Positions 35,102-42,887 of a stretch of DNA of 51,509 nt are shown here, in pieces. How positions within the stretch are numbered: the first letter of the stretch is position 1; each line of letters begins with the position of its first letter. The translations under genes were made by a program, and so were the position numbers. The notes beneath the pieces are model-generated. The model worked only from the letters and a program-made list of their open reading frames with translations. It did not search any database and had not been told where the DNA came from. The stretch covers positions 1 through 51,509 of the forward strand of contig CAMQYS010000014.1 in the NCBI GenBank assembly GCA_947039395.1, read 5' to 3'. This DNA is from an uncultured Deferribacteraceae bacterium. GTDB lineage: Bacteria > Chrysiogenota > Deferribacteres > Deferribacterales > Mucispirillaceae.

Positions 35102-36415
35102 TCAACTATTGACTAGTCGACTAAGTGCAATAGCAACCGCTGATCTTACTGATAGATGATTAAATCCACCTACACCTTCTATCGGTTCTAATACAAAATC
35201 TACCATCTCAAAAATATCTTCTGTAAATCCCCAACCTGTACCAAATATAAGTAAAACATGCTCATCTGATGAAAGTTTTGATAACTCATTAAAACTAATC
35301 GTTGCTCTAGAACTTCTTGCTGTTGTTGCAACTATTATAGGTCTATAACCTATCTTATCTTTTATCTTCTTAATAGCATCTAATAACGTAGATACTATAC
35401 TTGTTCTTGAAAATGCTTCACTTCTGTTAGGATTATACTCTACACCATAACCTTTTACCCAGTGATTTATAACTATATTAGCTATATCTCGTTGAGACTT
35501 TACTGGTGAAATAATAAAAAAATCATCAACTCCAAACGTACAAGACGATCTTGAAATATCATGTATATCTAAATTCGTAATAGATGTTGTTACTACATCT
35601 TTCTGCTTATCCTTCATAGGATAGTGCATTAACGCAATAGATAAATTAATCTTAGATGGCTCATTATAAAAACTCTTATGAGCTTCTACCAACCGACTCT
35701 CTTTACTCTGATCTTTAATTGATACAAGATCAGGTCTAGATAGTTTAGTCGCCATAAAAGATTCATCTTTACGCCACTCTTCAATTCGCTTATGGTCACC
35801 CGATAGAAGTACTTTTGGTACTTTCCATCCCATAAACTCCTCTGGTCTTGTATAGTGAGGATACTCTAATGATGATGTTGAAAAAGATTCATCAACTAAC
35901 GACTCTTTATCTCCAACTACCCCATCTACAAGACGTGCAATAGCATCTATCATAATCATCGCTGCAGGCTCACCACCTGTTAATATATAATCCCCTATTG
36001 AGTATTGATAGTCACATAAATGCTCGCTAACTCTCTCATCAACACCTTCGTAACGTCCACATACAAATGTTAAGCTATCATACTGCGATAACTCAATAGC
36101 ATCTTTCTGTGCAAAACGTCTACCACGTGGATCAAGAATAATAACTTTATGTTTATCACTATCCTCTCCCTTCTCATTAAGAGTGCTTTTAATAGATTCC
36201 AATGCGTTGTAGATAGGCTCAACTTTCATTACTAAGCCAACTCCACCACCAAACTGATAGTCATCTGTTGTTCTATGTTTATCAGTTGTAAAATCTCTCA
36301 AATTAATAGCATTAATTTCAATCAACTTATTATCTATCGCTTTAGATATAACGCCTTGATTAAAAGGGAGCTTACACATATCAGGAAAAATTGTAATCAC
36401 ATTATAACTTTTCAC
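35102..36415 (-). CDS. trmD: TrmD tRNA (m1G37) methyltransferase fused to a second RNA methyltransferase domain
   Basis: A 437-residue two-domain protein. Residues 1 to about 235 are a full TrmD, the SPOUT enzyme making m1G37: YQFGGGVGLVMKVEP, VCGRYEGVDERVSEH and the knot YSIGDYILTGGEPA. Residues about 255-437 resemble the separate RNA_Me_trans (DUF2168-type) protein that follows trmD in deltaproteobacteria and Aquificota: IALMHYPMKDKQ, DFFIISPVKSQRDIA, LLIFGTGWGFTEDIF and GVGGFNHLSVRSAVAIALSR. The join is in frame, with no internal start needed. It overlaps rimM by 14 bases. The target of the second domain is unknown. Confidence 0.93.
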   Translation of the reverse strand: MKSYNVITIFPDMCKLPFNQGVISKAIDNKLIEINAINLRDFTTDKHRTTDDYQFGGGVGLVMKVEPIYNALESIKSTLNEKGEDSDKHKVIILDPRGRRFAQKDAIELSQYDSLTFVCGRYEGVDERVSEHLCDYQYSIGDYILTGGEPAAMIMIDAIARLVDGVVGDKESLVDESFSTSSLEYPHYTRPEEFMGWKVPKVLLSGDHKRIEEWRKDESFMATKLSRPDLVSIKDQSKESRLVEAHKSFYNEPSKINLSIALMHYPMKDKQKDVVTTSITNLDIHDISRSSCTFGVDDFFIISPVKSQRDIANIVINHWVKGYGVEYNPNRSEAFSRTSIVSTLLDAIKKIKDKIGYRPIIVATTARSSRATISFNELSKLSSDEHVLLIFGTGWGFTEDIFEMVDFVLEPIEGVGGFNHLSVRSAVAIALSRLVNS

Positions 36416-40469: not shown

Positions 40470-40513
40470 AACTTTGATTTTGAAATATTTAGACTTGAAT
40501 TTACTTATATACA

Positions 40514-40800
40514 GATTGTGATCGGTTACGGTTGGTGGCTTGAATATAGTTGTGCATAGATTGTGATCGGTTACGGCTGGTGGCTTCAATATAGTTATGT
40601 GCAGATTGTGATCGGTTACGGTTGGTGGCTTCAATATAATTATGTGCAGATTGTGATCGGTTACGGTTGGTGGCTTGAATATAGTTATGTGCAGATTGTG
40701 ATCGGTTACGGTTAGTGACTTGAATATAGTTGTGTATAGATTGTGATCGGTTACGGCTGGTGGCTTCAATATAGTTTATTGTACAGATTGTGATCGGTTA
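40514..40800. repeat. 45-bp tandem repeat array
   Basis: Seven copies of a core GATTGTGATCGGTTACGG start at 40514, 40559, 40604, 40649, 40694, 40739 and 40786. The period is exactly 45 bp, 47 for the last step; the last copy is cut after 15 bases. Units differ at a few positions (GGTTGGTGGC, GGCTGGTGGC, GGTTAGTGAC; TGCATAG, TGTGCAG). The array is far richer in G than its surroundings. One minus-strand frame stays open through it because 45 is divisible by three. There are no spacers, so it is not CRISPR. The stretch 40329-40513 shows no gene. Confidence 0.95.
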
Positions 40801-41126: not shown

Positions 41127-41576
41127 CTACTCTCCTCTTTCTCTCTTTATCTCTGCTTTAAGATCATCAACAAGACTTTCCTCTTTACCGATTTTCTTAT
41201 AGTAATCCTTTAACGCCATCTCAACAGCTTCTTCTGCCATTACTGAGCAATGAATCTTTGCAGGAGGTAGCCCTCCAAGTTTATCTACTATATTCTGATT
41301 TGTTAATCTTAACGCATCTTCTAAGTGAGTTCCACGAAGAAGTTCTGTTGTCATAGAACTTGATGCAATCGCTGCTCCACAACCAAATGTTTTAAATGTT
41401 GCCTCTTCTATAACACCTTCATCGCTTATCTTTAAAAATAACTTCATCATGTCTCCACATGAAGGGTTTCCTACTTCTCCAACCGCTGAAGGATTTTCAA
41501 TCTCTCCCATATTTCTAGGATTTGTAAAATGATCCATAACCTCATCGCTGTAAGGTCCCATATTGTTTGTAGCCAT
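41127..41576 (-). CDS. iscU: IscU/NifU-type Fe-S scaffold protein
   Basis: Scaffold on which Fe-S clusters are built using sulfur from a cysteine desulfurase. The three cluster cysteines are in VGNPSCGDMMKLF, FKTFGCGAAIASSS and AKIHCSVMAEEA, and the Asp after the first Cys (CGD) is kept. 149 residues, with a charged C-terminal extension (DDLKAEIKRERGE). It sits between nifS and nfu. Confidence 0.95.
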   Translation of the reverse strand: MATNNMGPYSDEVMDHFTNPRNMGEIENPSAVGEVGNPSCGDMMKLFLKISDEGVIEEATFKTFGCGAAIASSSMTTELLRGTHLEDALRLTNQNIVDKLGGLPPAKIHCSVMAEEAVEMALKDYYKKIGKEESLVDDLKAEIKRERGE

Positions 41577-41611: not shown

Positions 41612-41704
41612 TATTAAAAAATTCTACTATCTTCTTGCAAATAACCCTACTTTATTATATTAAAACAGGTCATTATCATATATTAAAAAATTCTACTATC
41701 TTCT
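41612..41704. repeat. 24-base exact direct repeat ending in the nifS stop codon
   Basis: A 24-base string beginning TATTAAAAAATTCTACTATC occurs at 41612-41635 and again at 41681-41704, 69 bases apart. The second copy runs two bases into the nifS stop codon. The spacer between nifS and iscU otherwise shows no gene and no terminator. Confidence 0.85.
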
Positions 41705-42887
41705 ATTTATTATAAGCAGGAGACATCTCACATAATCTATTAACTATCTTAGGTGTTACTTCTAAAATATGATCAATATCTGCCTGAGTATTATATTTTG
41801 AAAGTGTCATCGTCATAGATCCAGCACATATATCTGTTGGAACACCAACCGCTGTTAAAACATGAGAAGCTATTAAATCCTCTTCATCTTCAGCTAATAT
41901 ATTAGATGAACATGCAGAACCAGATGCTGCATAAATACCGTTCTGTGTATAAGACATAAGAAGTGACTCTCCTTCTATATACTCAACCCAAAACGACACA
42001 TGGTACGGAAGCCTATCCTCTAGTGAACCCGTAAAATGAAGAAAATCAAACGACTCTCTTAATCCTGCAATTAGTTTATCACGTAATTCTTGCATATTTG
42101 GAACATAAATCTTCATCTCTTCTTTTGCAATCTTACAAGCCTCGCCAAATCCAACGATCGCTGCAACATTCTCTGAACCTGATCTATAACCACCCTCTTG
42201 ATGGCCACCATCTAAAAGAGACTTTAATTTCACACCATTACGTATATATAACGCAGCAGCTCCACGTGGGCCATAAATGTTCTGCGACGCAATAGTCAAT
42301 GTAGATGCTTTTATCTTATTCACATCTATATCCAATACACCAGCTGATGCTATAGCATCTACATGTAAATAAATTCCCTTCTCTTCACATATCTTACCGA
42401 TGCTTTCAATATCTTGAATAACACCTATTTCAGGGTTCGCATGTGATATCGCAACGAGAGCTGTATCTGATCTAATAGCAGACTTTAAATCTTCTAAATT
42501 AATCTTTCCATCAGTATCTACTTTTAATACTGTGTATGTATAACCCTCACTAACTTTCTTAGCAAGCAAATTATGTATCGATGCATGCTCAATCTCTGAC
42601 ACAATCATATGTTTCTTATCTTTTAAAACAGCAAGAATACCTTTAACTGCTAAGTTATTTGATTCTGTTCCGTTAGATGTAAATACTATCGTATCATCTG
42701 CATTAGCATTAACTAGTGCTGCAACCTGTTTGCGTGCTTCCTCAACCGCCACATAAGATCTTCTACCTAATGGGTAAAAATGTGCCGATGGGTTACCATA
42801 CTCTTCTGATATGAACGGTAACATCTTTTCCACAACTCTTACATCTGGCTTTGTACCAGCTATGTTATCTATATATATAAAACTCAT
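41703..42887 (-). CDS. nifS: NifS-like class V aminotransferase lacking the PLP lysine
   Basis: By fold and neighbours this is the cysteine desulfurase of the nifS-iscU-nfu operon (394 residues). Kept: GTESNNLAVKG, His101 (the ring-stacking His), Asn151, Asp177 (LHVDA), RSGSEN, and the sulfur-accepting Cys326 in ASGSACSSN. Changed: the PLP-lysine site, usually S-x-H-K-I/L-x-G-P-K-G, reads SQNIYGPRG, so the Schiff-base Lys is Asn203 and the His before it is Gln202. The Gln usually near residue 180 is Ala. The frame is clean. It could be an inactive scaffold-type NifS, a normal but lysine-less clade, or an enzyme with new chemistry. GAGGAT precedes the ATG. Confidence 0.88.
   Translation of the reverse strand: MSFIYIDNIAGTKPDVRVVEKMLPFISEEYGNPSAHFYPLGRRSYVAVEEARKQVAALVNANADDTIVFTSNGTESNNLAVKGILAVLKDKKHMIVSEIEHASIHNLLAKKVSEGYTYTVLKVDTDGKINLEDLKSAIRSDTALVAISHANPEIGVIQDIESIGKICEEKGIYLHVDAIASAGVLDIDVNKIKASTLTIASQNIYGPRGAAALYIRNGVKLKSLLDGGHQEGGYRSGSENVAAIVGFGEACKIAKEEMKIYVPNMQELRDKLIAGLRESFDFLHFTGSLEDRLPYHVSFWVEYIEGESLLMSYTQNGIYAASGSACSSNILAEDEEDLIASHVLTAVGVPTDICAGSMTMTLSKYNTQADIDHILEVTPKIVNRLCEMSPAYNK

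Follow-up and report, generated by a model that had tools for sequence, protein, structure and literature searches.

The window, by which we mean the whole 51,509-nucleotide stretch analysed here from an uncultured Deferribacteraceae bacterium, contains a gene for a NifS/IscS homolog in which the active-site lysine is replaced by asparagine. The genes for IscU and Nfu follow it downstream on the same strand (Table 1). The reading frame is free of stop codons, and the two codons in question were read directly from the bases: codon 203 (42279-42281) is AAC, for Asn, and codon 202 (42282-42284) is CAG, for Gln. An earlier note on this DNA had claimed the translation and both of these residues, and they stand, as do its assignments of His101, Asp177, Ala180, and Cys326 and its description of an operon with IscU and Nfu. 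That note did not mention the losses at Asn155 (Pro152 in the window protein), Arg354 (Thr359), and the phosphate-site Ser203 (Ala200; E. coli numbering), or a seven-residue insertion after Cys326, by which the Cys loop reads SACSSNILAEDEEDLIASH in the window protein versus SACTSASLEPSY in E. coli.

Table 1. Features of the lysine-less nifS locus in the window and of related loci in other genomes
Feature	Position	Strand	Basis or remark
Lysine-less NifS/IscS homolog, 394 aa	41703..42887	(-)	translation; Pfam Aminotran_5 and TIGR03402 scores
Gln202-Asn203 codons, replacing His205-Lys206 (E. coli IscS numbering)	42279..42284	(-)	read from bases; alignment
Ala180 codon (E. coli Gln183)	42348..42350	(-)	translation, alignment
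Pro152 codon (E. coli Asn155)	42432..42434	(-)	translation, alignment
Thr359 codon (E. coli Arg354)	41811..41813	(-)	translation, alignment
Cys326 codon, retained persulfide/ligand cysteine (E. coli Cys328)	41910..41912	(-)	invariant in 111/111 aligned sequences
Extended Cys loop following Cys326, SSNILAEDEEDLIAS, with 7 residues more than canonical IscS	41865..41909	(-)	alignment; common to the Zixibacteria-phylum clade
IscU scaffold (149 aa), retaining three ligand Cys, Asp39, and His-Cys; the genome's only IscU	41127..41576	(-)	family scan, locus comparison
Nfu (NifU C-terminal domain), 75 aa	40895..41122	(-)	family scan
Canonical NifS beside IscU, lysine-less gene missing	L070 1874-3563 (G024); L149 3611-5228 (G035)		
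Lysine site occupied by Thr or Val (SSQTLGG, SSQVLGG)	L143 4288-5496; L144 4066-5271		Zixibacteria-phylum clade

The class V aminotransferase fold is present. The window protein scores 222.7 bits against Pfam Aminotran_5, and an AlphaFold2 model built from the clade alignment (mean pLDDT 83.6; the Cys loop, residues 325-339, below 50) matched IscS structures in Foldseek with TM scores of 0.89-0.92. Scores against the family models TIGR03402 (415.9 bits) and TIGR02006 (319.8 bits) lie under the NCBIfam equivalog cut-offs of 530.75 and 643.2, respectively; the canonical paralog, P0002, is likewise below the equivalog cut-off, at 485.1. As the lysine, Gln183, Asn155, and Arg354 are all missing and the scores are under these cut-offs, the protein should not be filed as a functional cysteine desulfurase.

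Conservation and selection in the class Deferribacteres

Orthologs were searched for with a profile built from 23 orthologs, and genome-wide statements in this report rest on profile searches. Of the 48 Deferribacteres genomes, 44 have the lysine-less gene, one split fragment (G014) being counted. The search gave no lysine-less ortholog in the three genomes from the same phylum but outside the class (G040-G042), which use a canonical NifS with a fused NifU instead. In the alignment, all 38 distinct Deferribacteres sequences have Asn at the lysine site. The preceding residue is Gln, or Thr in two hydrothermal-vent genomes. The earlier note had named a sequencing error at 42270-42285 as something that would overturn its claim. 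Such an error is excluded because the 38 sequences come from separate assemblies.

Between congeners, dN/dS of the lysine-less gene is 0.06-0.10, comparable to the 0.10-0.12 of the canonical paralog; the gene is under purifying selection, and these values exclude chance or decay as the source of the change. The loss of a catalytic residue might as such indicate a decaying pseudogene or an assembly error. The probability of this explanation is negligible, since the same loss is seen in 38 distinct sequences with intact frames, low dN/dS, and a conserved operon. The loss of the lysine is an old, clade-wide, and conserved trait that extends beyond one gene.

The operon and the canonical paralog

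The gene order nifS (lysine-less)-iscU-nfu was found at all 20 Deferribacteres loci checked, and the IscU sequences at these loci retain all three cysteine ligands, along with the Asp and the His-Cys motif. Profile searches gave a single IscU in each genome, the exceptions being weak marginal hits within one genus. The SUF system (SUFBD_core) was not found in 49 of 51 Deferribacterota genomes by a search that was positive in 14 of 14 control genomes. The two genomes with a SUFBD-core protein belong to the same genus (G018:C57:3642-4334 and G025:C110:1568-2260). What makes the lysine-less gene notable is its place in the operon of the single Fe-S scaffold that this bacterial class has. In one genome (G003), neither IscU nor the lysine-less NifS was found, most likely owing to an assembly gap. 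Just downstream of nfu in the window, at 40494-40800, there is a tandem array of 6.8 copies of a 45-bp unit with 88% matches.

A separate, canonical NifS is encoded away from iscU, in a cysE-rrf2-nifS cluster; a second, intact IscS/SufS had been suggested in the earlier note as something to look for. At every paralog locus read, this protein keeps the His-Lys pair, Gln183, Asn155, and Arg354. Its gene lies beside that of serine acetyltransferase (cysE) in most families, often with the gene of an Rrf2 regulator between the two. A conserved ORF of 82-84 amino acid residues was observed beside it at 10 of 13 Deferribacteres loci (for example, L068 2762-3007 and L081 3697-3948) and has no match in Pfam or NCBIfam. 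Genomes with the lysine-less gene also have the canonical one, the single exception being an assembly that is 73% complete.

One genus of family f4 departs from this pattern. In two of its genomes (G024 and G035), the lysine-less gene is missing, and the sole NifS found is canonical and adjoins IscU (Table 1). This arrangement looks like a natural replacement, in assemblies that are 88% and 78% complete, respectively. In a third genome of the family (G037), IscU-Nfu lies near a contig end, and no lysine-less NifS was detected; this genome gives no information on the point.

Concerted changes in the pocket

We scanned the alignment of 111 sequences for columns conserved at 90% or more in 43 canonical enzymes and at 10% or less in every one of the three lysine-less groups. 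The scan gave five such columns, Asn155, Gln183, Lys187, Lys206, and Arg354 (E. coli numbering), four of which contact PLP or the cysteine substrate in IscS structures. Most of the pocket was lost in concert: Asn155, Gln183, and the substrate-binding Arg are gone along with the lysine. His104, Asp180, and Cys328 (E. coli numbering) are invariant in all 111 sequences, and Thr76, Glu77, and the glycine-rich loop are also retained in the lysine-less clade. The retained His104, Asp180, Thr76, and glycine-rich loop suggest that some ligand, perhaps non-covalently bound PLP, still matters.

A replacement for the Schiff-base lysine was also looked for. No lysine in the alignment is both new and universal in the Deferribacteres lysine-less clade: K13 is present in 87% of the clade and is R or A otherwise, K82 is present in canonical enzymes too, and K120 (87% of the clade) is missing from the sister clade. 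An alternative PLP lysine is not supported on this ground.

Relatives outside Deferribacteres

Outside the phylum, the sample comprised, for Bacteria, the phylum of a Zixibacteria contig and a few single genomes and, for Archaea, the one phylum reached through a Bathyarchaeota genome. In the Zixibacteria-contig phylum, 22 of 132 genomes carry relatives that score 445-529 bits in the profile search. Those that were read have lost the lysine (Asn, or in two cases Thr or Val; Table 1), have Thr in place of the Arg, and share the loop extension. The lysine position is free to drift in this clade, while in Deferribacteres it is always Asn. Most of these loci, though not all, have IscU next to the gene, and most of the genomes tested in this phylum also have SUF. 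In a tree built without the trait columns, the clade is the sister of the Deferribacteres clade (100/99 support). As the same loss is found throughout Deferribacteres and in relatives from another phylum, it points to a conserved partner of the scaffold, presumably a dead enzyme, and not to an error.

The archaeal sequences are of the type of Archaeoglobus fulgidus IscS2 (SSND.YGPKG, Lys to Asp, no insertion, beside IscU) and group with that protein (100/98). In the best maximum-likelihood tree, the lysine-less proteins of Bacteria and those of Archaea fall into separate clades, and a tree with a single clade is not rejected (p-AU 0.356). As the clades are apart, the function of the A. fulgidus protein may not be transferable to the bacterial one.

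Comparison with known systems

The best match of the model in the PDB is 4hvk, described as the 'unusual L-cysteine desulfurase from A. fulgidus', an IscS without the lysine. The D199K variant (4r5f) is the next match, and the A. fulgidus IscU complexes 4eb5 and 4eb7 are among the top six. According to PMC7585200, which cites the primary papers, desulfurase activity is absent from A. fulgidus IscS because of the Lys-to-Asp change, and one of its cysteines ligates the cluster on IscU; PMC9769115 identifies this ligand as Cys321, in a complex with IscU D35A. Our alignment gives the changes in A. fulgidus IscS2 as K to D, Q to A, H to N, and R to L. The window protein resembles it in the replaced lysine (Asp there, Asn here), in the change of Gln183 to Ala, in the loss of the His205 and Arg354 equivalents, in the retained Cys, Asp180, and His104, in its probable role as a partner of IscU, and in being closest to it in fold. 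It differs from IscS2, which has no loop insertion, keeps Asn155, has Asp instead of Asn, and lies on a separate branch in the best tree. On present evidence, the window protein would, by analogy, work like the A. fulgidus IscS2 partner.

Methanosarcina acetivorans IscS1, which we compared by its description only, is also reported to lack the catalytic lysine and PLP-binding residues; unlike the window protein, it belongs to one of three iscSU pairs in its genome (PMC7585200). Canonical E. coli IscS (1p3w, 3lvl) shares the fold, Cys328, Asp180, His104, and the operon with IscU; it has Lys206, His205, Gln183, Asn155, and Arg354 and a shorter Cys loop, and is a true desulfurase. The minimal ISC system, MIS, is likewise a small scaffold system with no chaperones in the operon. 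It is described in PMC12192291 as having a cysteine desulfurase, whereas the partner here has lost its catalytic residues and its operon also includes a gene for Nfu, located after iscU.

Proposed function and sulfur source

The earlier note had held that standard desulfuration should fail, and the joint loss of Arg354, Asn155, Gln183, and the lysine, together with the precedent of A. fulgidus IscS, supports this. The window protein is probably an IscS/NifS that no longer works as an enzyme and acts instead as a dedicated partner of IscU, with sulfur arriving as sulfide or from the canonical NifS. Among the roles that the note had offered, that of a partner or ligand donor on IscU fits best, and PLP bound differently through another lysine is unsupported. 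For the bacterial clade, this reading is drawn from sequence, conservation, selection, genomic context, and phylogeny.

From the sequence and from the A. fulgidus analogy, we infer the following scheme. The protein would still fold as a class V dimer with a mobile Cys loop, longer by seven residues, and would be unable to form the internal aldimine or to bind the carboxylate of cysteine, so that no persulfide would be made from cysteine. It would dock IscU, and its Cys326 would either accept sulfur or serve transiently as the fourth ligand of the [2Fe-2S] cluster while this forms, as reported for A. fulgidus IscS2-IscU. The finished cluster would be handed to Nfu and to targets. Sulfur would come as free sulfide, or as persulfide or sulfide from the canonical NifS of the cysE-rrf2-nifS cluster.

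It is improbable that the protein is still a PLP enzyme, catalysing desulfuration or another reaction with non-covalent PLP or an alternative lysine. The retained His104, Asp180, Thr76, and Glu77 would suit such an enzyme, and PLP is drawn in the A. fulgidus complex 4EB5 in PMC9769115; however, the clade has no lysine that is at once new and universal, which speaks against a substitute for the Schiff-base lysine, Gln183, Asn155, and Arg354 are gone as well, and the lysine position drifts to Thr and Val in the Zixibacteria-phylum clade. For a retired partner of IscU, two sources of sulfur are weighed. In one version, the protein only positions IscU, Cys326 caps the cluster, and free sulfide is the direct source. 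We give this version close to an even chance. It is the published reading for A. fulgidus IscS (PMC7585200); in E. coli without IscS, H2S feeds IscU and rescues Fe-S assembly on it, growth being IscU-dependent (PMC13015791); and, with the cysteine-binding Asn155 and Arg354 lost, no substrate site is kept. Against it, nearly all of these genomes keep the canonical NifS, and a plentiful supply of sulfide is not certain, since sulfur respiration is absent from most of the Deferribacteres tested for it (PMC6896113).

The canonical NifS could also act in trans, making the persulfide and passing it to Cys326 or to bound IscU, so that the two paralogs split the roles. The near-constant company of the canonical gene is consistent with such a relay, as are its place in a cysteine-supply cluster and not beside IscU, the invariance of Cys326, and the two f4 genomes in which the single NifS found is canonical and beside IscU. 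However, those two assemblies are incomplete, the canonical NifS may serve only tRNA thiolation and other pathways, and the archaeal genomes G099 and G145 show just the lysine-less type at E ≤ 1e-50. Two docked class V dimers are not known to exchange persulfide. The relay is a tentative proposal, which we place somewhat behind direct feeding by sulfide.

Significance and additional observations

Fe-S assembly is essential, and in textbook schemes the scaffold works with an active cysteine desulfurase. In this class, to which the gut commensal Mucispirillum belongs, the one scaffold operon combines IscU with a protein that should make no persulfide. Archaea were already known to have proteins of this kind; what this analysis adds is the clade in Bacteria, with its insertion in the loop. 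In the open-access literature searched, we found no paper describing the bacterial lysine-less clade or other lysine-less desulfurases. The whole class may build its Fe-S clusters on one IscU with an obligate non-enzymatic IscS, fed by sulfide or by the separate NifS, a generalization that we hold as a serious possibility short of an even chance. If it is true, lysine-less IscS-IscU pairs would be an ancient and widespread way for both Bacteria and Archaea to assemble Fe-S clusters, not a curiosity of Archaeoglobus, and Bacteria would use the longer, acidic Cys loop to deliver iron or sulfide. The role of the class V fold for IscU beyond desulfuration, and sulfide as the physiological sulfur source of an ISC system, become testable. 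For these genes, the automated label 'cysteine desulfurase' is probably incorrect, at the least in Deferribacterota, in part of the Zixibacteria phylum, and in many archaea.

Two other genes may be mentioned. A class V aminotransferase of the TIGR01977 type (L002 1468-2646; G000:C4:56639-57748) keeps the lysine (GNKNLFAPHG), and its catalytic-Cys region (GTLQSNPRAH) is apparently without cysteine, which makes it a second degenerate desulfurase homolog, of the opposite kind. In the window, trmD (35102-36415) appears to be fused to a second domain of about 190 amino acid residues, giving a protein of 437 residues in total.
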